DNA of 64,000 bases from Mesorhizobium huakuii (GTDB taxonomy: Bacteria; Pseudomonadota; Alphaproteobacteria; Rhizobiales; Rhizobiaceae): NCBI RefSeq assembly GCF_014189455.1, contig NZ_CP050296.1, positions 3,406,001 to 3,470,000 on the forward strand. The letters run 5' to 3'. Below, in pieces: positions 368 to 47,197 of this stretch. Position 1 is the stretch's first letter. Each line of letters starts with the position of its first letter. The translations under genes were made by a program, and so were the position numbers. The notes under the pieces are model-generated. The model worked only from the letters and a program-made list of their open reading frames with translations, had not been told where the DNA came from and searched no databases.

Positions 368-904
368 TTAGCGCGGCGCCAGCACCATCATCATCTGGCG
401 GCCTTCGAGCTTCGGCTCCGCTTCGACTTTGGCGATGGTCGCCACTTCTTCGCGCACCTTGTTCAGAAGCTGCATGCCGAGTTCCATATGCGCCATCTCG
501 CGGCCACGGAAGCGCAGCGTCAGCTTGACCTTGTCGCCTTCCTCGAAGAAGCGCCTGACGGCCTTCATCTTGGTCTCGTAGTCATGGCTGTCGATGTTCG
601 GGCGCATCTTGATCTCCTTGATCTCGATGACCTTCTGATTCTTGCGCGCCTCGGCCGCCTTCTTCTGGTTGGCGTATTTCAACTTGCCGAGATCGAGGAT
701 CTTTACGACGGGGGGCACCGCATTGGGCGATATCTCAACGAGATCGAGCCCCGCCTCTTCGGCGAGCAGCAATGCGTCGTTGATGGAAACATCGCCGCGG
801 TTCTGGCCTTCGGCGTCGATAAGCTGGACCCGGGGAACCCGGATGTCACGGTTGGAGCGCGGCCCATCCTTGGTCGGCGCCGCTGCTTTGAAAGGTCTGC
901 GAAT
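368..904 (-). CDS. infC: translation initiation factor IF-3
   Basis: IF-3 binds the 30S subunit, prevents premature 50S joining and proofreads initiator tRNA selection. The reading frame gives 178 residues: an N-terminal domain with [13 protein letters not shown] and a C-terminal domain with [17 protein letters not shown], both typical of the family. The first ATG/GTG/TTG in frame would cut off about 44 conserved residues. The start I use is an ATT (902-904) reading [18 protein letters not shown], preceded by AAGGAG at 914-919 with 9-nt spacing. ATT/ATC/ATA starts are a known feature of infC and allow IF-3 to repress its own translation. A terminator follows. Confidence 0.93.
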
Positions 905-913
905 GGTCGTGGT

Positions 914-919
914 CTCCTT
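914..919 (-). promoter_or_regulatory. ribosome-binding site deciding the infC ATT start
   Basis: AAGGAG on the minus strand, 9 nt before the ATT codon. No in-frame ATG/GTG lies at a comparable distance from any other Shine-Dalgarno motif, so this site supports the non-canonical start. Confidence 0.7.
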
Positions 920-1079
920 GGCCGTTTCGTTCAGGATTTGTCAGTCTTGATGCGTGGACGCGCCAATGTGGTGAGCGCGCGGGCGGAGTCAATAGCACAG
1001 CATTGATAGAAAATCACCCTGATCACCGCCTGCACCAAACAAAGAAGCAGCGCGAGCACTTTTCGCCACGCCTCTGGCT

Positions 1080-1910
1080 GTGCCACAAGAACGCCGTGCC
1101 AGAAGAGGGGCCCGAGGAAAAAGCCATGACCGCCACGCCCCCGACCTTTCTCCCCCAACCTTTCTCAATGTCGATGGATCGCGCATCGCGCTGCGCCATA
1201 GCGCCGGTTTGACGCCGGGCATTGTCTGGCTCGGCGGCTACAAGTCGGACATGCTGGGCACGAAAGCGCAGACGCTGTCGGACTGGGCGGCAAAAGAGGG
1301 CCGCGCCTTCCTGCGCCATGACTATTCCGGCCATGGCGAATCCGGCGGCGCCTTTGCCGACGGCACGATTTCGACATGGCTTTCGCAAAGCCTTGCCGTG
1401 TTCCGGAAGTTTGCCAAGGGCCATCAGATCCTGGTCGGCTCCTCAATGGGCGCCTGGATCGCGCTGCGCATGGTGCAGGAATTGCGCAAGGCGGGCGACA
1501 CCAATGTCGTCGGCCTGGTGCTGCTGGCGCCGGCGCCGGATTTTACCTCTGAGCTGGTCGAACCGGCGCTGACCGCCGCGCAGAAGCGCGCCCTCGCCGA
1601 AAAGGGGTTCTTCGCCGAGCCGTCGGACTATTCCGCGGAACCTTACATCTACACGCGCGCGCTGATCGAGGACGGGCGAGCCAACCGGGTGATGACCGGG
1701 CCGATCGACACCCATTGCCCGGTCCACATCGTGCAGGGCCTGGCCGATCCGGACGTGCCGTCGAGCCACGCTCTGAAACTGGTCAGCCTGCTGCCGGCCG
1801 ACGATGTCACGCTGTCGCTCATTCCCGACGGCGATCACCGCCTGTCGCGGCCGCAGGATCTCGACATGCTGGTGCGGGCGGTCGGCGACATGGCCGGGCG
1901 GGGCAGGTGA
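1080..1910 (+). CDS. alpha/beta hydrolase, start region disrupted by a 14-bp duplication
   Basis: This is a serine hydrolase of the alpha/beta fold. It shows the nucleophile elbow GSSMGAW, a conserved GHGES motif and a C-terminal GDHR segment carrying the likely catalytic His. The substrate is unknown. The natural start looks like the ATG at 1126, which has GAGGAA just upstream and reads MTATPPTFL. That frame is thrown off by a near-perfect 14-bp tandem duplication at 1138-1165. The conserved frame (PPTFLNVDGSRIALRHS onward) is open back only to a GTG at 1080 without a recognisable RBS. The protein is therefore either made from a poor upstream start or N-terminally damaged. The next gene starts 3 nt after the stop, suggesting co-transcription. 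Confidence 0.75.
   Translation: MPQERRARRGARGKSHDRHAPDLSPPTFLNVDGSRIALRHSAGLTPGIVWLGGYKSDMLGTKAQTLSDWAAKEGRAFLRHDYSGHGESGGAFADGTISTWLSQSLAVFRKFAKGHQILVGSSMGAWIALRMVQELRKAGDTNVVGLVLLAPAPDFTSELVEPALTAAQKRALAEKGFFAEPSDYSAEPYIYTRALIEDGRANRVMTGPIDTHCPVHIVQGLADPDVPSSHALKLVSLLPADDVTLSLIPDGDHRLSRPQDLDMLVRAVGDMAGRGR
1138..1165 (+). repeat. 14-bp tandem duplication in the hydrolase 5' end
   Basis: CCCCCGACCTTTCT is followed at once by CCCCCAACCTTTCT, 13 of 14 identical. Removing one copy puts the ATG at 1126 in frame with the conserved hydrolase sequence. Confidence 0.85.
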
Positions 1911-38679: not shown

Positions 38680-40149
38680 TTAGCGCAGCGGCGAAAAAAT
38701 CGCCGAGATCAGATGGAAGGGCAGTGCGCCATAGGCTGCGACTGTCGCATCATCGTCCCATTGGCGGAATTGCCGGGAGGGTCGCGCCTCCAGCGTCACG
38801 GCGCGCCTTTCTCCATCAAGCGTCACCTTGCCGCGAAAATGCAGCACCCGTTCCCCGCCGGACCGGCTGATGGCCATGGCGCGCAGGCGCGCAATATGGT
38901 CGTCATCGACGTTGATCTCCATCTCGATGCGGCGGCGGACTGGTGGCACACGGATCTTGACTGTGATGTCCAGCATCATCTCGCCTGCCGTTGGCGGGCA
39001 AGGTATGGCCTGTGAGAATACCGATGGCGGCAGCGTTTGCGACGGCTCGTTGCGGGCTGGCCTGCCGCGCCAGGCCTTGGCTGGCGGCTCCTGCCGCAGC
39101 CGGCCGCTCTTGCGTCGCAGCCGCAACTGCTTGGCAAGGCCACGCGACAACCAGACCAGCCTGCCGAAATCGGTCCGCGGCTTGGCCTGCAGCACCGCCG
39201 ACCAGCGCGAGAGACCGGTGCGGTCGGCCATGTCAAGCACGCGCCCCAGCACCTTGTCCGGCACCCCCACGCCTGTTTCAAGCGCCAAATAGGAGAGCGC
39301 TACAGCAGCGGCAACGGCAAGGCCGCGTCTGGCGACAACATCGAGGAACACATCCCAGTCTACATCGCCGCCGCGAATGGCCACCGCGCAATCGACCAGC
39401 CAGTCGCTGTGCGTGTGGGCATCGAGCCCGCCATGCGCGATGGCAAGCGCGATGCGGTCGGCCGGCGACGGCACCAGCACGCCGACGCCGCTGAATTCGG
39501 CGCTATCGGCCCGTTGCCAGATGGCCAGGTCGTCTTCCTCGCTTCGCTGCGAACCGTCATAGGCGAGCTGGTGCAGGTCGATGTCGCCGAGATTGCCCTT
39601 GAAGAAGTTCATCGAGCGCAGCGACGCCAGCCTTGTCCGCAGATATTGCGGGCTGACACCCGTGGCGATCTGCCAGTCGCCGTCGCGCAGCACGTCGAAG
39701 GCCGTTTGCATGTCCTGCGGCCGCACCAATATGTCGATGTCGTGCGCCACCCGGCCGCGCTGTGCCGAGGCGTTCAAGGCAATGCGGCTGGCGCCCTTGA
39801 TGAGCATCACCTTGCATCCCGCATCGGTCATCGCCTTCAGCGCCGGTTCTGCTTCGCGCATCGCCATACGCGATTTGGTCCACAGCATCTTCTGCAGGCC
39901 GACAAGGCGCGGATAAGCGGAATGGCCGGCGAGCTTCCTGCCGAACCTATCGGAGATCGCGGCCAGCAGCCGGTGCTCGCGAAACGAGACATGATCGATA
40001 TCGTTCTCGTCCAGCCAGCGGCCGGCGCAAGCGGCTGCGGCATCCTCGTCGGGAAGAAGTGCGGCCTTGAGCAACTGGTCTAGTCCGCCCGTCGGCCATG
40101 ACCAGCCATAGTCCGGGAAGCGACGCTCGATACAGCGGATATCAGCCAT
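38680..40149 (-). CDS. nucleotidyltransferase-family protein (NTP_transf_5-like)
   Basis: 489 residues. The central region has the nucleotidyltransferase landmarks VMLIKGASRIALNA and VAHDIDILVRPQDMQ (the D-x-D pair), followed by DIDLHQLAY, as in the uncharacterised nucleotidyltransferase family PF14907. The C-terminal ~150 residues are a separate beta-rich domain. Family members often sit beside PqqD-like and HPr-kinase-like genes, as here. Transfer of a nucleotide to a sugar, peptide or protein is possible, but the substrate is unknown. It overlaps the preceding glycosyltransferase by one base. Confidence 0.75.
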   Translation of the reverse strand: MADIRCIERRFPDYGWSWPTGGLDQLLKAALLPDEDAAAACAGRWLDENDIDHVSFREHRLLAAISDRFGRKLAGHSAYPRLVGLQKMLWTKSRMAMREAEPALKAMTDAGCKVMLIKGASRIALNASAQRGRVAHDIDILVRPQDMQTAFDVLRDGDWQIATGVSPQYLRTRLASLRSMNFFKGNLGDIDLHQLAYDGSQRSEEDDLAIWQRADSAEFSGVGVLVPSPADRIALAIAHGGLDAHTHSDWLVDCAVAIRGGDVDWDVFLDVVARRGLAVAAAVALSYLALETGVGVPDKVLGRVLDMADRTGLSRWSAVLQAKPRTDFGRLVWLSRGLAKQLRLRRKSGRLRQEPPAKAWRGRPARNEPSQTLPPSVFSQAIPCPPTAGEMMLDITVKIRVPPVRRRIEMEINVDDDHIARLRAMAISRSGGERVLHFRGKVTLDGERRAVTLEARPSRQFRQWDDDATVAAYGALPFHLISAIFSPLR

Positions 40150-40826
40150 CAGCCCGGGCCGGCTTTGTTGCGGGCCCGCCGCAGCATGGCGAGCCGTGCC
40201 ACTTCGAGATAGCCGCGGTCGCGGGCCGCATCGCGTCCATAGGACAGGCTGCCCGGCCGTATGCGGCGCAGCGCCAGCGCCTCGTCCAGCATGTCGAGGG
40301 CAAGGCCCGCCTCGCGCGCCCGGGCGATCCAGTCGATCATTTCGCCACGGCCGCCCGGCGGATCGACGATCGGTCCAACCGTCTTGGCGACCTCGCGGCG
40401 GATCATCATGGTGGTCCGCGACCAGCCAGGCACGGCCGTGGCCTCGGGCGCGTCCGGCTGGTCGTTGCGGAAATTCCGCCAGTGACAGAAAACGCCCGCT
40501 GTCGCGGGACATCTCTTGAGATGCGCCAGCTGTCTCTCGATCTTGTCCGGCAGCCACAGATCGTCCGCATCGAGCGTCGCGATGAGCGGCGTCGACAACG
40601 CGGCGATACCCCTGGTCGTGGCGCTGCCAGGTCCGGCATTTGCCTGGCGCAGCAGCTGCACCGGCAGGTCTGTTCCGCCGATCGCTGAAGCCAGGTCGTC
40701 GGTCGAACCATCATCGACGATCACCACCAGGTCGGGCCGCACCGTCTGGGTGGCGACCGATCGCAGCGTCTCGCCAATCGTGCCGCTGGCGTTGAATGCC
40801 GGAATGACGACGCCGTATCCGCTCAT
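40149..40826 (-). CDS. family-2 glycosyltransferase
   Basis: 225 residues with the GT-A start GYGVVIPAFNASGTIGETL, VVIVDDGSTDD and the DxD motif LIATLDADDLWLPDKI. It transfers a sugar from a nucleotide donor. Shorter than most GT2 enzymes and without membrane segments. ATG at 40826 overlaps the stop of the upstream GT2 gene (TGATG); a GTG one codon earlier is also possible. Confidence 0.9.
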   Translation of the reverse strand: MSGYGVVIPAFNASGTIGETLRSVATQTVRPDLVVIVDDGSTDDLASAIGGTDLPVQLLRQANAGPGSATTRGIAALSTPLIATLDADDLWLPDKIERQLAHLKRCPATAGVFCHWRNFRNDQPDAPEATAVPGWSRTTMMIRREVAKTVGPIVDPPGGRGEMIDWIARAREAGLALDMLDEALALRRIRPGSLSYGRDAARDRGYLEVARLAMLRRARNKAGPG

Positions 40827-41578
40827 CACATGAACTGCCAGTCAGCGAGATCCTTGAGTTCGAAGATGCCTTCGATCCGCCGCAAGGTCGGATCTGCCTT
40901 GCGGCGGGTCATCGACTTGTAGATTGCACGCATGAATTCACGGGACTGGACATCGGTCTGCCGGGTCATGTTGCCGGGATGGCGTCTATAGTAGAGGGCC
41001 ACGGTCTCCGGCGTGACATATCTTGGTCCGCTTTCGAAGGTGCGCAAGAGGTAGTCGGTGTCCTCCGCCTGATGGAAGGCTTCGTCGAACACACCGATGC
41101 GCCCGACAAGCCGGCGCGTGAAGATCGCCGCCGACAAATGGATGCCGCGAACCGTGATACTGCGGCTGTCGGCGGCAGGCTCCAGGCGCTCGTCGTCGAT
41201 CTTGTCGACCAGCATCATCCTTGAATAGGTGAGATCCAGATTCGGATCGTTGCGGAAGAGTTCGATATCGGCCGCAAAGCGTCCGACCGGCGAAATGTCG
41301 TCCGAATCGAGAAAGGAGACAAGGTCGGTCTCCGGCTTGAGCAATCCCAGCCCGGTGTTGCGCGTCCGGGTCACACCCATATTGGGTTGTTGAAACAGGC
41401 GGATGCAGGCGTTCTCCGCCATCAGCGAGCGCACCATTTCGGCCGATCCGTCGGTCGAGCCGTCATCGATGACGATGATGTCGAGATCGGCGGCATCACG
41501 CTGCCTGAGCAGCGAGCGTAGCGCCGGGCCCACAAAGGTCTCGCGGTTATGGACCGGCATGATCACGCTCAGCCTCAT
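40826..41578 (-). CDS. family-2 glycosyltransferase, tandem paralogue B
   Basis: 250 residues beginning MRLSVIMPVHNRETFVGPAL, with DIIVIDDGSTDGSAE and the metal-binding VSFLDSDDISPVG. It is closely similar to the neighbouring gene at 41619-42374 over its whole length (shared RQRDAADLDIIVIDDGSTDG, DKIDDERLEP, QAEDTDYLLR), so the two arose by tandem duplication. Ends GIFELKDLADWQFM. Soluble, probably working at the membrane with the rest of the block. Confidence 0.9.
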   Translation of the reverse strand: MRLSVIMPVHNRETFVGPALRSLLRQRDAADLDIIVIDDGSTDGSAEMVRSLMAENACIRLFQQPNMGVTRTRNTGLGLLKPETDLVSFLDSDDISPVGRFAADIELFRNDPNLDLTYSRMMLVDKIDDERLEPAADSRSITVRGIHLSAAIFTRRLVGRIGVFDEAFHQAEDTDYLLRTFESGPRYVTPETVALYYRRHPGNMTRQTDVQSREFMRAIYKSMTRRKADPTLRRIEGIFELKDLADWQFM

Positions 41579-41618
41579 ATCAGCCCCAAGCCTGGCCTCG
41601 ATCCGACGACGTGCGGCA

Positions 41619-42374
41619 TTACATCATCCGCCAATCAGCAGATGCGCTTTTCAGCTCGAAAATACCTTGAACCTCGCGCAGCGACGGGTCGGCCTTGCGT
41701 CGTCGCATCGACTTGTGGATTGCACGCAGATGATTGCGGACCCGGCTGTCATGTTCCTTGGTGACATTCCCGGCGTGGCGCCGGTAGTAGATCGCGACGG
41801 TGTCCAGCAACTCGTAGTTCGCACCCGTTTCGAAAACCCGCAGCAGATAGTCGGTGTCCTCGGCCTGTTCGAACTCCTCGTCGAATTGGCCCGTTCGCTC
41901 GACAAGGCTCCTGCGGAACAGGGCAATGCTCAGCGAAATTCCCCGCATCGTCATGGTGCGGCTGTCGACCGCAGGCTCCAGTCTCTCGTCGTCAATCCGG
42001 TCGGCCAGCGTCATCAGCGAATAGGTCAACTCCAAGCCGGGGCTCTCGCCGAAACGCGCAAGATCGGTCTTGAAGCGCCCGGCCAGCGAGATGTCGTCGG
42101 AATCCAGGAACGAAACGAACTCGGCGTCCGCAGGCAATTGCCTCAGCCCGGCATTGCGAGTCCTGGCGACACCCATATTCTCTTGCCGGAACAGCCGGAT
42201 GCAGGGGTTCTCGACCATCATCGAACGCACGGCCTCCGCCGAACCGTCGGTCGAGCCGTCGTCGATGACGATGATGTCGAGATCGGCGGCATCGCGCTGG
42301 CGCACCAACGAGCGCAAGGCCGGAACGACATAGCGTTCGCGGTTGTAGACAGGCATGATCACGCTCAATTTCAC
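41619..42374 (-). CDS. family-2 glycosyltransferase, tandem paralogue A
   Basis: 251 residues from a GTG start (VKLSVIMPVYNRERY) overlapping the kinase stop by 4 nt. It has DIIVIDDGSTDGSAE and VSFLDSDDISLAG. Paralogue of the next gene. The open frame continues far upstream through the kinase gene but that part is a shadow frame. Donor and acceptor sugars are unknown. Confidence 0.88.
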   Translation of the reverse strand: MKLSVIMPVYNRERYVVPALRSLVRQRDAADLDIIVIDDGSTDGSAEAVRSMMVENPCIRLFRQENMGVARTRNAGLRQLPADAEFVSFLDSDDISLAGRFKTDLARFGESPGLELTYSLMTLADRIDDERLEPAVDSRTMTMRGISLSIALFRRSLVERTGQFDEEFEQAEDTDYLLRVFETGANYELLDTVAIYYRRHAGNVTKEHDSRVRNHLRAIHKSMRRRKADPSLREVQGIFELKSASADWRMM

Positions 42375-43420
42375 GAAACAACTCGCGTCAGAAAATCCGC
42401 AAGAGTGCCGGCGATCTCCTCGGGATGCGTTCCCAGGGACAGACGGTAGCTTGGCAGCTGGCGGGTAAGATCGCCGAAGAAACGGAAGCCGCTTTCGCGC
42501 TCCCCCGGCATCTGCATGATGCCCGACGGTGCCAGTGCAATCATGGCGTCTCGACGCGACACTGGCACAATCGAACTCGTCTCGCCACCGCCGATATGTG
42601 GCACCACCAGCGCAACGATGTCCAGCGCTGCAGGCACCGGCCGGGGCGCGATGTCGGCAATGTGAAACGTGTGCTTGCCCTGCCAGTTCAAGGGGCTCTC
42701 GATCATCAGTCGCTGCTGCAGGCCCAGCCGTGCGAAACCTTGCGGGTCCTGCTTCAGTGTTGAAAACAGCGGCCGCGCGGTCACGCCGCCGGCGAGATCG
42801 ATCAGCACATAGTCGTCGCCGACGCTGTCGAGCCCGTTGAGCAGGCCGGCGGCGACGGTGCCGGATTTGCCGGCGCCGCCCGCGCCGGCGAGCAGCACGC
42901 CCTTGCCATTGGCGCCGAGCGTGCCGGCATGGGTCAGCCGCATGCCGCGCGCCGCATATTCCCAGTGCAGGAAGGCACGCAGCGGTGCTGTCGGCTCCCA
43001 GGGCGGAAAAGCATCGGGCGAGGTCATCAGTTGGACGCCAATGCGGCGCTCCGGATCGTAGACCTGCCAGAAATCCAGATCGTGAAAATAGTGGCCACGC
43101 AGTTCGGCCCCGGCGAGCCGTTCGGCAAAGCCGTATTCGGTGAAATGCGCATCGCCCCATCGCGCCGGCTCAGGGATGCCGCCAATGCCGGGATGAACGG
43201 TGAAGATGCGGCATGTCGATGGCTCCGCCAGGTCGTCCTCGGCCTCCAAGAAGGCGTGGCCGAGCGCCTCGGCGAGCACACCGGGAGCGACATGCGCGAT
43301 CAGCTCCAGCCGGGGCAGGCGGATCGTCCGCGCGGCCGGATAACATGCAGCGGCATCTTCAGCGGCGGTGATGAGATGCCGGGCGTAGTCCGGCAAGGTT
43401 TCGAGCGTGACGCGCGGCAT
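42371..43420 (-). CDS. HPr-kinase-related P-loop protein
   Basis: 349 residues. The C-terminal half resembles the HprK catalytic domain, with Walker A LLAGAGGAGKSGTVAAG (about 177-193) and GDDYVLID (about 201-208). The N-terminal ~150 residues are unlike HprK and unassigned. No HPr gene is near and a genuine short hprK exists at 27979, so its target is likely different. Placement between a PqqD-like gene and glycosyltransferases matches neighbourhoods annotated elsewhere as HprK-related kinase with PqqD-family partner. It may phosphorylate a peptide or sugar. Confidence 0.78.
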   Translation of the reverse strand: MPRVTLETLPDYARHLITAAEDAAACYPAARTIRLPRLELIAHVAPGVLAEALGHAFLEAEDDLAEPSTCRIFTVHPGIGGIPEPARWGDAHFTEYGFAERLAGAELRGHYFHDLDFWQVYDPERRIGVQLMTSPDAFPPWEPTAPLRAFLHWEYAARGMRLTHAGTLGANGKGVLLAGAGGAGKSGTVAAGLLNGLDSVGDDYVLIDLAGGVTARPLFSTLKQDPQGFARLGLQQRLMIESPLNWQGKHTFHIADIAPRPVPAALDIVALVVPHIGGGETSSIVPVSRRDAMIALAPSGIMQMPGERESGFRFFGDLTRQLPSYRLSLGTHPEEIAGTLADFLTRVVS

Positions 43421-43453
43421 CCTGCGCCCTCTATCTCAGACCCACCCGGCTCG

Positions 43454-43885
43454 TCAGGATGCCTGCTTGACCGCCGGCCAGCCGAGGGGTTCCTCGACCT
43501 CGTGGATGGGGTCCACGATGATCAAATCGGCGAGGTCGTCGTGAATGCTCACATCGAGCGGCTCGCTCGTGGCGGCAAGCTCGGCAGGCAACTCGCCCGG
43601 CAGCGGTTGCGCCGCCGTTTCCGAAGGCACCAGCAAACCCAGTTCGAGCAATTGCGATATGAAGTGTTCGAGTTCAGCCGCGCCGAGTGTCGAACCGCCG
43701 GCGGTCAGCCCGATCAGGGCCCGGGCATCGATCCCGGACGCGAGCGCCTGCCAGACCCTGCTGCCGGAATCGGAAAAGCCGAAATATTTGCCGTTGGCAA
43801 GGTTGAGCACCACGGCCTCGCCATCGAAGGATTCGAAGACGATGTCCCTGCTCGCAACCGCATAGGCGTCGCAATCACGTGTCAT
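43454..43885 (-). CDS. PqqD-like peptide-binding protein
   Basis: 143 residues. The first ~95 match the PqqD/RRE fold: ESFDGEAVVLNLANGKYFGFSDSGSRVWQAL, then an ELEHFISQLLELGLLV helix. PqqD domains present precursor peptides to modifying enzymes. The ~48-residue C-terminal extension is acidic and unassigned. ATG at 43885 follows GCGGGG. The same frame is open back to 43999, so a longer form is possible. First gene of the unusual block. No PQQ genes are nearby. Confidence 0.8.
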   Translation of the reverse strand: MTRDCDAYAVASRDIVFESFDGEAVVLNLANGKYFGFSDSGSRVWQALASGIDARALIGLTAGGSTLGAAELEHFISQLLELGLLVPSETAAQPLPGELPAELAATSEPLDVSIHDDLADLIIVDPIHEVEEPLGWPAVKQAS

Positions 43886-44067
43886 TGTTGCCCCGCTTCG
43901 CAATCCCCGCCCACCCGCAGGATCGCGTCCACTGACAACGCCTGTAAACGCTCGGTTCTTCGTTGGCAAGGTAAGCGGAGCCGGCAAGACTCCAGCCATT
44001 TGGGGGCCGGCTGGGAGCGCGAGCCGATCACGCCTCTATTTCGAGCGCCGACAGCGGCTTCGAGCAA
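43882..44067 (-). CDS. possible small ORF overlapping gbcB end and pqqD-like start
   Basis: 61 codons ending GDCEAGQQ, with its TGA overlapping the PqqD-like ATG (ATGA). The length and tight coupling would suit a precursor peptide, but there is no convincing RBS, the first codons overlap gbcB, and a competing frame is also open. Listed as a candidate only. Confidence 0.2.
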   Translation of the reverse strand: MLEAAVGARNRGVIGSRSQPAPKWLESCRLRLPCQRRTERLQALSVDAILRVGGDCEAGQQ

Positions 44068-45131
44068 CAGGCGAGGATGAAGCCGTCATCGATCTCGTGA
44101 TCGAGGATGCCGCCATTGTGGCTCATCTCGACAGCGCCGGAGACTTTCTTCACCTTGCAGGTTCCGCACAGGCCGAATTCGCAGGCTGCGGGGATCCGCA
44201 CGCCCGAAGCGCGCGCCGTCTGCAGCACGGTCTGGCCGGCGACGCATTCCGCGTCGACGTCCGAAAGCGCGAAGCGGATCGGTGTTGCGGCTTCGACGGG
44301 AACAGCCACACTGTCCGGCGCAGCGAACGGCGCCGGGATTTCCTCCACCATCGGTGCGGCAAAGCTCTCCTGGTGGTATTTCGTCATGTCGAAGCCGGCG
44401 GCCTCCAGCATGCCGCGCACGGCGCGCATGAAAGGGTCCGGACCGCAGCAGAAGATTTCGCGTTCGCGGAAATCGGGCGCCAGCAGCGGCAGCCGGATGG
44501 CGTCGATGCGGCCCATATGGCCGTACCAGCCCTCGCGGCTCGACCGCTCCTCGATCATGAAGCCGAGCGACAGGCCGGGCATATGACCGCCGAGCAGTTC
44601 AAGCTCCTTGCGGAAGATGATCTCTTCGGCGCGCCGGGCGCAATTGACGAAGCCGACATCTGTCCACGGCGCGCAGTCGTTCAGCCAGCGCAGCATCGAC
44701 ATCATCGGCGTCACGCCGGAACCGGCCGAGATGAACAGATATTTGGCCGCCGGGTGGCTGTGCAGAGAAAAGTCGCCATTCGGCCCATAGGCCTTGACGT
44801 GCGAACCGGGCTTCAGGTGATCGAACATCCAGCGCGTGCCGATGCTGCCGGCCTGCGCCTTCACCGTCACCGCGATCGAGAACGGCCGCGACGGTGACGA
44901 CGACAGCGTATAGGTGCGCATCAGCGGCCCGTCCGGCGTCGGCAGTTCCAGCGTCACGAACTGGCCCGGCTTGTAGCGGAACCAGGTCTGGTTGTCGGAG
45001 CGGAAGGTGAAGGTCTTGACGTCAGGCGCTTCGTCGCTGACGCCGATCACTTCCAGCACCTGCAGCCTGTCGTTCCAGGGCGCCATCTGGTCGAGATGGC
45101 GATAGAGGCCAAGATCCGTCATCGCATTCAT
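44028..45131 (-). CDS. gbcB: glycine betaine monooxygenase, reductase subunit
   Basis: 367 residues: FAD-binding domain (MRTYTLSSSPSRPF), NAD-binding domain (FISAGSGVTPMMSML, FCCGPDPFM) and a C-terminal plant-type [2Fe-2S] ferredoxin (CEFGLCGTCKV plus a later Cys). It passes electrons from NAD(P)H to the Rieske oxygenase GbcA, which starts just upstream. Together they demethylate glycine betaine to dimethylglycine. Domain order and neighbour support the name. Confidence 0.9.
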   Translation of the reverse strand: MNAMTDLGLYRHLDQMAPWNDRLQVLEVIGVSDEAPDVKTFTFRSDNQTWFRYKPGQFVTLELPTPDGPLMRTYTLSSSPSRPFSIAVTVKAQAGSIGTRWMFDHLKPGSHVKAYGPNGDFSLHSHPAAKYLFISAGSGVTPMMSMLRWLNDCAPWTDVGFVNCARRAEEIIFRKELELLGGHMPGLSLGFMIEERSSREGWYGHMGRIDAIRLPLLAPDFREREIFCCGPDPFMRAVRGMLEAAGFDMTKYHQESFAAPMVEEIPAPFAAPDSVAVPVEAATPIRFALSDVDAECVAGQTVLQTARASGVRIPAACEFGLCGTCKVKKVSGAVEMSHNGGILDHEIDDGFILACCSKPLSALEIEA

Positions 45132-45142
45132 CCCTCAACCTC

Positions 45143-46390
45143 TCAAGCAACGCTGCGCAGCGCCGGCCTGCCGTCGTCGGCAAGGCGCGGGCCGATGAAG
45201 CGCGCATACCAGTCGACAAACTGGATCACGCCGCCCTCGTGCAACTCGGAATAGGGGCCGGGCTCATAGGCCGGCGACAGGATGCCGAAGGCGTTCTCCT
45301 CGACGATGCGGCGATCCTGGTCGTTGGTCTCGGTCCAGACATGGGTGAGCTCGGCAAGATCGTAGTCGACACCTTCGACCGCATCCTTGTGGACCAGCCA
45401 TTTGGTCGTCACCGCCGTTTCCGTCGCGCTGATCGGCAGCACGCGGAAGGTGACGGCATGGTCGATGAGGATATGGTTCCAGGTCGTCGGGTAGTGATAG
45501 TGCATCAACGTACCGATGCGGTCGGCCGACACGCTGTCGGAGAGGTTCTTCTTCACCGCCCGCTTGCCGGTCATCGTGTAGCTGACCGCGTCGCGCAGCA
45601 GCGGCGCCCTTGTGGCGCGGAATTGCCCGGCCGGGTCGATGCGGAACTTGCTCGGCAGGCCGGCCGCCTCGCATTTGGCCCAGTGCGCCAGCATCTCCGG
45701 ATCGCTGTCGGCGCCTTGCACGCCGGTCACCGTCGGGGCTTCCGGGAAGGTCTTGCACAGTTCCGGGTGATTGCCGGCGCAATGGTAGCACTCGCGGTTG
45801 TTTTCCCAGACGAGCTTCCAGTTGCCCTTCTCGACGATCGTGCTCTCGAAGGCGATCTTTGCTTCGCTCAAGCGGTGCGGCTTGAGATAGGGTTCGATCA
45901 TCGCCCGCATCGGCGCGAAGTCCGCCGCCTCCTTGGCCAGGCAGATGAAGATGTAGCCGGCCACGCTTTCGCAGGCGACCGGCTTCAGGCCGAACTGGCT
46001 CTTGTCGAAACCATCTGCCATCTGGCGGGCAAACAGTAACCTTCCGTCCAGCTCATAGGTCCACTGGTGATAGGGACAGACCAGCTTGGCGGCCATACCC
46101 TTGTCGGTGTTGCAGACGCGGCTGCCGCGATGGCGGCAGGAATTGTGGAAGGCATTGATCTTGCCCTGCTGATCGCGCACCAGCACGACCGGATAGTCGC
46201 CGATCTGCACGGTGATGAAACTGCCGGGCTTCGGCAGTTCGCAATCATGGCCGATGAACAGCCAGTCGCGATACCAGATCAGCTCCATGTCGAGCTTGAA
46301 GAAATCGGGATCCGTGTAGAAGGGCTGCTCGAGTGAGAAACCCTCTCTGCGGCTGTTCAAGAGCCTCAGCATATCGTTGCGCGCATCCAT
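45143..46390 (-). CDS. gbcA: glycine betaine monooxygenase, Rieske oxygenase subunit
   Basis: 415 residues. The Rieske cluster is CRHRGSRVCNTDKG with CPYHQWTYELDG (Cys-x-His and Cys-x2-His). The mononuclear iron site is in ENNRECYHCAGNHPELC. Family members demethylate glycine betaine or stachydrine; pairing with GbcB favours betaine, with stachydrine (Stc2) as the alternative. GAGGACAGGAC precedes the ATG. A cobalamin riboswitch begins about 125 nt upstream in the same orientation. Confidence 0.9.
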   Translation of the reverse strand: MDARNDMLRLLNSRREGFSLEQPFYTDPDFFKLDMELIWYRDWLFIGHDCELPKPGSFITVQIGDYPVVLVRDQQGKINAFHNSCRHRGSRVCNTDKGMAAKLVCPYHQWTYELDGRLLFARQMADGFDKSQFGLKPVACESVAGYIFICLAKEAADFAPMRAMIEPYLKPHRLSEAKIAFESTIVEKGNWKLVWENNRECYHCAGNHPELCKTFPEAPTVTGVQGADSDPEMLAHWAKCEAAGLPSKFRIDPAGQFRATRAPLLRDAVSYTMTGKRAVKKNLSDSVSADRIGTLMHYHYPTTWNHILIDHAVTFRVLPISATETAVTTKWLVHKDAVEGVDYDLAELTHVWTETNDQDRRIVEENAFGILSPAYEPGPYSELHEGGVIQFVDWYARFIGPRLADDGRPALRSVA

Positions 46391-46514
46391 GTCCTGTCCT
46401 CTTCGTTCAAGGACTGACTATGGTGGTGATTGAGGAAGGATCGACCGCACGCCGGCTCGCGCCGGATATGCAGCATCCGCCTCTTGACCGCCCACCGCGA
46501 TCAGTCGAGTTCAA

Positions 46515-46705
46515 CTATCTCGGGCTGGTTTCCGGGCTCTGGAGTGTCCTTGCGGACGGTCGCGACACCTTCCCAGGCTTTCGCCCAGTGGTCTCCCGTT
46601 GCGACTTGAACTCCACCACCGTTGCGGGGGCAGCGCCGGACTTTGACCGGCTTCCCAATTCTCCGCCCCGTCGTCACGAAGCGGCACCTGAGATGGCCTG
46701 ATCTA
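46515..46705 (-). promoter_or_regulatory. cobalamin (B12) riboswitch upstream of gbcA
   Basis: On the minus strand, in the right order: AGGTGCC, GGGAAGCCGGT (46646-46656), TCCGGCGCTGCC, CCCCCGCAACGG (46619-46630), CCACTGGG, CTGGGAAGG and the B12 box GAGCCCGGAAACCAGCCC (46522-46539). Together they form the conserved cobalamin aptamer core. The downstream gene in this orientation is gbcA. A CCGGC-GCGA-GCCGG hairpin (46452-46465) between aptamer and start codon may belong to the expression platform. Confidence 0.9.
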
Positions 46706-47197
46706 ATCACGACAGCGGATGCGACATCGGCATGAAAGCGACATCGCATCCATGTGGCGCGACACGCATGCGAAACGATCGGGTCAAGGCGGCAGTCACG
46801 AAAATCGTCGCGGTCACGGCTGTACCTGCTGTCAGAATCGACCCGGAACGGGCGCTAAAAAGGTTAACGGTATCGAAAAGTAACTATTAGCAGATTCTAA
46901 AATCGAACCGAACGGTTCGTTTCTGTTGACGGTGCGTGCAGGACGGTGTGAACGCTGAGGCTCCGATACAGTTGGTGATCGCAGCGCTGGTTTGCCTAAC
47001 AGTTTGATATCAAAAACAAAAATATATGGCCAGGAAGGCCTTGGCACAATTTCAAGTGGTGGATTCTTGGTCCACACGGAACAACTTCGTGATTGGAAAC
47101 GGCTGGCTGGCTTTCCCACATCGGGGCTGTCCGAACGACGCGATTTTAATCCCAAGACACGCCGCTAGACGGACAGAAAAATACTGGAGTGCCCAAA
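46706..47197. other. long intergenic region with one operator-like palindrome
   Basis: About 490 bp without a supportable gene. The only clear structure is CGAACCG-AA-CGGTTCG at 46904-46919. The rest presumably holds the promoters of the gbcA riboswitch transcript and of the DUF680 genes. Open frames here lack RBS and family features. Confidence 0.5.
46904..46919. promoter_or_regulatory. perfect palindrome CGAACCG-AA-CGGTTCG
   Basis: Seven-base perfect arms with a 2-bp centre, resembling operators of TetR/AcrR-family repressors. The likely target is the DUF680 array 280 bp downstream or the riboswitch transcript. No regulator gene is adjacent. Confidence 0.45.

Follow-up and report, generated by a model that had tools for sequence, protein, structure and literature searches.

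MetE and NrdAB are examples of B12-independent isozymes whose expression is switched by cobalamin. Cobalamin riboswitches mostly control genes for B12 synthesis and transport, for the uptake of cobalt and for such isozymes; a comparative survey that included 15 Rhizobiales genomes treats isozymes of B12-dependent enzymes as an established target category (PMC3766115), and a metE switch of Mesorhizobium loti is given in Table 2 of PMC5948670. The main text of that survey contains neither "betaine" nor "Rieske" (PMC3766115), and we recognised no report in the openly licensed literature that links a cobalamin riboswitch to a betaine or Rieske demethylase; a prior mention elsewhere is possible. 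To an earlier, sequence-only reading of the DNA analysed here, a Rieske betaine monooxygenase was unfamiliar as a target of a B12 riboswitch.

In Ruegeria pomeroyi, a B12-dependent route of betaine breakdown, MtgBCD, has been demonstrated; growth on betaine and the production of methionine both require mtgC and mtgD, and proteins of the MtgB type are induced (PMC12478193). The same paper mentions GbcAB as the route that other bacteria use instead, contains the word "riboswitch" in its text once, in the title of a reference, and discusses the work of Barra et al. (2006), according to which Sinorhizobium meliloti must possess another system for demethylating betaine in addition to Bmt (PMC12478193). 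Group Vb of the Rieske oxygenases is recognised by homology to GbcA and Stc2, by an Asn that replaces an aromatic residue of group Va and by a Cys pair by the mononuclear iron (PMC7948474, PMC10952381).

In the 64-kb stretch of DNA analysed here (the window), a cobalamin riboswitch precedes a gbcAB-like gene pair (Table 1). We estimate the probability at about three in four that it acts as a translational OFF switch before a B12-independent isozyme, a reading in which we infer the ligand, the direction of switching, occlusion of the Shine-Dalgarno sequence in vivo, the substrate and functional replacement. The locus resembles the cobalamin switches of metE and nrdAB in its RNA family and in having a B12-free target enzyme with a putative B12-dependent counterpart in the genome, but its target is a catabolic Rieske demethylase pair rather than methionine synthase or ribonucleotide reductase; we judge the build to be that of an ordinary riboswitch and the target to be new for a known riboswitch class. 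The oxygenase and reductase are homologous to the GbcAB pair of Pseudomonas and Chromohalobacter, but they score under the curated cut-offs, and the Pseudomonas-type loci L197–L199 have no cobalamin riboswitch and lie in genomes without MttB. MtgBCD(E) of R. pomeroyi corresponds to the proposed B12-dependent partner, for which the window genome has a similar gene set, and is the counterpart, not the switched gene. Stc2 of S. meliloti is a Rieske demethylase that also falls in group Vb and matches the window protein with 533 bits, but it belongs to a separate, supported clade.

A search of the whole window against Rfam 15 (cmscan) returned a single match over the gathering score, RF00174 (Cobalamin), which is full length (model positions 1–189 of 189) and scores 103.9 bits (E 6.4e-25) against a gathering score of 31.5 bits. 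The aptamer ends 115 nt before the ATG of the gbcA-like gene (46390) with no gene in between; an 82-aa ORF that overlies the aptamer (46749–46501) has no NCBIfam match. The sequence-only reading had placed a full aptamer on the minus strand, with gbcA as the next gene on that strand, and had suggested a covariance-model search as a check. The strong RF00174 match bears out the aptamer, the span 46391–46705 is correct for aptamer plus expression platform, and the gene order stands; the gene name does not, as the GbcA and GbcB scores lie under the equivalog cut-offs. The oxygenase and reductase genes are separated by 11 nt, and the reductase gene is probably the operon partner of the oxygenase gene; the gene calls of 61 of 80 relatives include a member of its protein cluster.

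Table 1. Features of the riboswitch leader and the gene pair downstream of it, in window coordinates
Feature	Position	Strand	Basis
Cobalamin riboswitch aptamer (5' end at 46706)	46506..46706	-	cmscan, RF00174
Loop L5 (TGCCCC) of the aptamer core, predicted to kiss L13	46627..46632	-	invariant in 34/34 aligned leaders
P13 hairpin (GATC-loop-GGTC), loop GGTGGGC as likely L13 kissing element	46486..46502	-	pairing counts, 34 leaders
Candidate anti-sequestor, 5' arm (GACTGA....GGTGG), overlaps P13	46492..46506	-	pairs with 46426-46412
Candidate anti-sequestor, 3' arm (CCACC....TCAGTC), overlaps sequestor	46412..46426	-	leader alignment
Shine-Dalgarno sequestering hairpin (GTCCT ... AGGAC), holds GAGGA before the gbcA start	46396..46414	-	predicted structures and alignment
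gbcA-like gene, 415-aa Rieske oxygenase of the quaternary-ammonium demethylase group (Vb)	45143..46390	-	NF058607, 520 bits; PDB relatives
gbcB-like gene, 367-aa FAD/NAD and 2Fe-2S ferredoxin reductase	44028..45131	-	NF058606, 351 bits

The best curated models of the two proteins are GbcA (NF058607), with an equivalog cut-off of 670 bits, and GbcB (NF058606), with a cut-off of 500 bits; since both scores fall under these values, the name should read gbcAB-like. The PDB relatives of the oxygenase (3n0q, 3vca and 4qup) score 533–548 bits and Stc2, compared directly, 533 bits, and on the GbcA model the aligned stretches of Stc2 and 3n0q reach 494 and 496 bits beside the 520 bits of the window protein, which is about equally close to stachydrine demethylase and to GbcA. 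The group Vb signature WENNRECYHC is kept in the alignment to 3vca and 4qup, with the diagnostic Asn chosen by its position in the motif. The tree separates the window clade from Stc2 with support of 98/97, and the Pseudomonas-type proteins L197 and L198, which are over the GbcA cut-off (810 and 800 bits), are each 50% identical to the window protein. Our best guess for the substrate, from these comparisons, is glycine betaine, with proline betaine as a live rival; the logic of the switch would be identical for both.

The expression platform was examined in an alignment of 34 leaders. The P13 stem behind the aptamer consists of standard pairs in 135 of 136 cells, 10 of them with changes on both sides, and slid controls gave at most 57% pairing. 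The GGGC of the L13 loop and the L5 letters are invariant across the aligned leaders, and the P13 loop is largely complementary to L5; from this complementarity and the known architecture we predict an L5–L13 kissing interaction. In position and shape, this hairpin matches the P13/L13 of known cobalamin riboswitches. Mesorhizobium-type leaders have a second conserved set of elements, CCACC...TCAGTC just 5' of the start codon and GTCCT/AGGAC over the Shine-Dalgarno sequence. The candidate anti-sequestor helix is paired in 84.9% of cells, with changes on both sides in five pairs, and the Shine-Dalgarno sequestor forms all 5 of its pairs in 21 of 34 leaders; the two pairings exclude each other, as is usual in translational control. 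Of the 17 leaders computable for both folds, 15 have a more stable computed fold with P13 and the sequestor than with the anti-sequestor, so the anti-sequestor stays a candidate for the ON structure. Free folds did not give the anti-sequestor as the ground state, and thermodynamic proof of the switching structures was accordingly set aside.

The sequestor has at most 3 of its 5 pairs in 10 of 34 leaders, nine of which are of the Rhizobium type, and P13 is kept in all ten, complete with its 4 pairs everywhere except in L073, which forms 3 of them. In eight Rhizobium-type leaders (L074, L077, L082, L083, L086, L088, L091 and L092), the aptamer and P13 are kept and the Mesorhizobium-type sequestor and anti-sequestor letters are missing or poor; another expression platform may therefore act there. 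An intrinsic-terminator platform was rejected, as the search of 46300–47100 found no terminator on the coding strand; the one terminator-like site, at 46904–46919, lies on the opposite strand upstream of the aptamer, and this number equals the chance expectation. No sigma-70-like promoter was found in the same region.

The mechanism that we propose would run as follows. When (adenosyl)cobalamin is plentiful, it would occupy the aptamer and the P13/L13 hairpin would dock on L5; in this ligand-bound leader the gbcA Shine-Dalgarno sequence would stay paired and GbcAB would not be made. Betaine would then be demethylated by the corrinoid route, in which an MtgB-type methyltransferase and the MtgC corrinoid protein would pass the methyl group to tetrahydrofolate. 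Under B12 scarcity, the corrinoid proteins would be without cofactor, the aptamer would be empty and the leader would open; the O2-dependent Rieske pair would then act on glycine betaine, or on a closely related quaternary ammonium compound, and yield dimethylglycine and formaldehyde.

Named genomes were sampled as the best 80 of 593 loci that encode relatives, the closest being that of Mesorhizobium erdmanii (98% protein identity). A riboswitch core lies at most 800 nt upstream of gbcA in 58 of these 80 loci; all 23 of the 58 on which cmscan was run were confirmed, and the other 35 rest on the 13-nt core together with a second motif. For the remaining 22 loci, cmscan of the whole fetched stretch, about 13 kb each, found no Rfam family at all. 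The comparison of upstream regions within Mesorhizobium that the sequence-only reading had suggested gave an aptamer core, the only element scored, in all 29 further loci of the genus that were examined, which are the highest-scoring among the 84 other genomes of the genus with a match; ten minus-strand loci had first been reoriented and, for L131, the start also shifted. At the class level, 19 of 385 genomes have a strong homologue, and the switch is present in 7 of the 18 besides the window genome (cmscan); at the phylum level it is present in 5 of 20 further loci (cmscan), these being the best-scoring new ones from outside the genus among 49 genomes with a match. Absence of the switch in both samples rests on cmscan of the fetched stretches, and some species are perhaps counted twice, once in the named and once in the unnamed set.

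The distance from core to ATG is nearly constant, mostly 229–259 nt, with five loci at 280–347 nt. The switched genes of L149–L151 are sister to Pseudomonas-type proteins, of which the two scanned (L197 and L198) are over the GbcA cut-off, and those of L186 and L188 fall inside the clade that contains Stc2; the pairing is therefore distributed over a large part of the family and is no oddity of Mesorhizobium. Judged from these sequence comparisons, the pairing of switch and gbcA is old and is present in distant alphaproteobacterial families.

If GbcAB replaces a B12-dependent enzyme, that enzyme is expected in every genome with a switched gbcA. The partner family sought was that of the MttB/MtgB corrinoid methyltransferases (PF06253), counted without the 29 other same-genus loci and without L080. 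Among the named genomes (79 of 80 searched), PF06253 occurs in 57 of 57 switched vs. 1 of 22 unswitched genomes; the corresponding counts are 7 of 7 vs. 6 of 11 in the class sample, where the base rate of the family is 83 of 385, and 5 of 5 vs. 2 of 15 in the phylum sample. With the window genome included, the family is present in 70 of 70 switched vs. 9 of 48 unswitched genomes. A two-way rule, in which absence of an MttB gene would be equivalent to absence of the switch, was rejected, as its reverse fails in these nine unswitched genomes with MttB genes: L097, L144 and L148 (beside Stc2), L191 and L192 (one genus), and L152, L153, L154 and L157, which have distant homologues at 48–50% identity. 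In Ciceribacter lividus (L097), gbcA has no switch upstream of 6001 and the MtgB-type gene is kept, while its close kin L077 and L082 are switched; this genome would represent a natural loss of the switch and a good test case.

These raw counts are inflated by near relatives, and the Fisher p of 6.5e-23 for the co-occurrence ignores kinship and is not usable. One clade holds 20 of the 22 unswitched named rows, and the first tree (81 rows) has three changes of the switch, two in line with MttB and one without a difference (L097). The tree with the class sample (99 rows) has 5 contrasts, with a mean of 3.1 in line, 0 opposed and 1.9 without a difference. The widened tree (57 rows: 56 of 119 gbcA-type rows, plus Stc2 without traits) has 7 supported contrasts, with a mean of 5.1 concordant, 0 discordant and 1.9 without a difference; the sign test on these gives a median p of 0.0625. 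The independence of the association is thus not very high, with few independent evolutionary events behind it.

The search of the window genome for MttB-family genes, also suggested by the sequence-only reading, gave nine matches, one of them in a cluster of MtgB/MtgC/MtgE/DUF1638/MTHFR type. The MtgB-like protein of this cluster (C1:7097118-7098788) is encoded with a homocysteine S-methyltransferase (PF02574), a corrinoid-binding protein (PF02310, PF02607), a DUF1638 protein and an MTHFR C-terminal domain, and the core of the cluster is common to eight of the loci examined. Its PDB relatives are the close homologue 4yyc (970 bits), 2qne (422 bits) and the glycine betaine methyltransferase 9yce (421 bits), and it scores at most 135 bits against the trimethylamine methyltransferases 7xcl/7xcm. 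In a tree of the MttB family, for which 18 loci were fetched, all five rows from genomes with a single MttB gene fall in the clade of this protein (support 98); seven single-copy loci had been fetched, two of which (L159 and L165) are without a row. What a B12-independent isozyme would be paired with, an MtgB-type gene and its cluster, is found in the same genome, the common substrate being putative. Two of the nine matches are overlapping pieces, in different frames, of one split gene (C1:5493411-5494899), which is probably a pseudogene or a sequencing error because of the change of frame.

In a few genomes, switched genes for other isozymes lie close to gbcAB. NrdAB and MetE are textbook B12-independent isozymes under cobalamin riboswitches, so that in these genomes gbcAB keeps isozyme company. 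In L062 (1073–11440) and L064 (1169–11124), nrdAB, gbcAB and metE each have a cobalamin riboswitch of their own, all three within about 10 kb, and this trio is a compact B12-scarcity island. In L065, nrdAB and gbcAB each have their own switch; the gene names rest on Pfam for nrdA and nrdB of L064, on NCBIfam for nrdA of L065 and on clustering with these for the others. Divergent switches stand before glutaredoxin-like nrdH and nrdI in L186 and before the gene for a ribonucleotide reductase large subunit in L143, and metH is close by in L054 and L056. The proposal of the sequence-only reading that GbcAB would be the B12-independent route in a pair parallel to metE/metH, with an MttB/MtgB enzyme as the partner, gains support from the 70/70 vs. 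9/48 distribution and from these isozyme neighbours, within the bounds of few independent events and a putative substrate.

The alternatives differ in what GbcAB would be for and in what it would act on. The gene could belong to the biosynthesis regulon rather than to the isozymes: low B12 would turn GbcAB on, and betaine would supply glycine for 5-aminolevulinate as well as one-carbon units or methyl groups for the corrin. Such a supply role would suit the company of the window switch in its own genome, where the other four of five cobalamin riboswitches seem, from ORFs read by eye, to precede a cob operon, a binding-protein ABC transporter, a cbtA/cobU-type cluster and bluB, the window switch being on this reading the only one before a gene outside synthesis and uptake. 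It would also suit industrial B12 fermentation, in which betaine feeding reportedly increases ALA, glycine and methionine (PMC9699165) and betaine is a component of media (PMC5948670, PMC9157374), and the neighbours of gbcAB in some relatives: a cobF-like gene adjoins the pair in L054, L059, L068 and L069 (for the single member run, that of L068, Pfam names tetrapyrrole methylase only), and switched btuB-like receptor genes, both under the BtuB cut-offs, lie nearby in L069 and L056. We nevertheless consider it improbable, for all 24 that were examined of the 48 unswitched genomes have cobalamin riboswitches at other places and yet none before this gene, and 39 of the 48 are without MttB; moreover, nrdAB, metE and nrdHI are isozyme genes rather than biosynthesis genes.

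A change of substrate would leave the logic of the switch intact, with proline betaine (stachydrine) or another quaternary ammonium compound as the target and an MtpB-like member of the MttB family, instead of MtgB, as the partner. The GbcA score below its cut-off, the 533 bits to Stc2, the place of switched L186 and L188 among the relatives of Stc2 and the many MttB paralogues of the window genome are all consistent with this, and it is unlikely rather than far-fetched. It is opposed by the separation of the window clade from Stc2, by the sister position of switched L149–L151 to proteins that include L197 and L198, and by the MttB tree, in which the clade of all five single-copy rows also holds the MtgB-like protein of the window genome, which is far nearer to the glycine betaine than to the trimethylamine methyltransferase. 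That the riboswitch is merely left over from a rearranged cob gene and leaves gbcA uncontrolled is very improbable: riboswitches do stand divergently beside unrelated genes, but here the orientation is the same and the core-to-ATG distance nearly constant in dozens of species with different flanks, and the platform elements are conserved up to the start codon. An example of the divergent arrangement is a shortened Rieske oxygenase gene in the window genome (C1:47264-47947; L019:11264-11947, plus strand), which lies beside the cobalamin riboswitch of the cbtA/cobU-type cluster; its frame of 227–243 aa shares 38% identity with the window protein across 196 residues, and the gene looks broken.

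A translational OFF switch of a B12-independent GbcAB-like pair would add a catabolic target to the list of cobalamin-riboswitch targets, and it predicts that many rhizobia have two interchangeable routes of betaine demethylation between which B12 status chooses. We lean, with some reserve, toward the broader proposal that in the Alphaproteobacteria an ancient cobalamin-riboswitch module decides the fate of betaine methyl groups, which would go to methyl-tetrahydrofolate through MtgBCD where B12 is present and to formaldehyde through the switched GbcAB-like Rieske enzyme where it is absent, so that GbcAB would be the third recurrent class of switched isozymes after MetE and NrdAB, in places sharing an island with them, and betaine breakdown, methionine synthesis and B12 status would be linked in rhizobia. 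The finding bears on the puzzle of the extra betaine-demethylating system of S. meliloti, opens to experiment the connection, long used in practice, between betaine supply and B12 production, and gives genome annotation an extra clue to the role of otherwise similar Rieske demethylases.

Two minor observations concern the surroundings of these genes. The Pseudomonas-type locus L198 encodes the sRNA CrcZ near gbcA (815–1209, minus strand), from which we infer that L197–L199 come from Pseudomonas. In the window, several glycosyltransferase-like ORFs, identified by eye, adjoin a weakly PqqD-like protein at 43454–43999 (24.3 bits on the PqqD model of Pfam, cut-off 23.4; 30 bits on the lasso PqqD model, cut-off 80), and the region 38680–43999 is perhaps a peptide or polysaccharide cluster.
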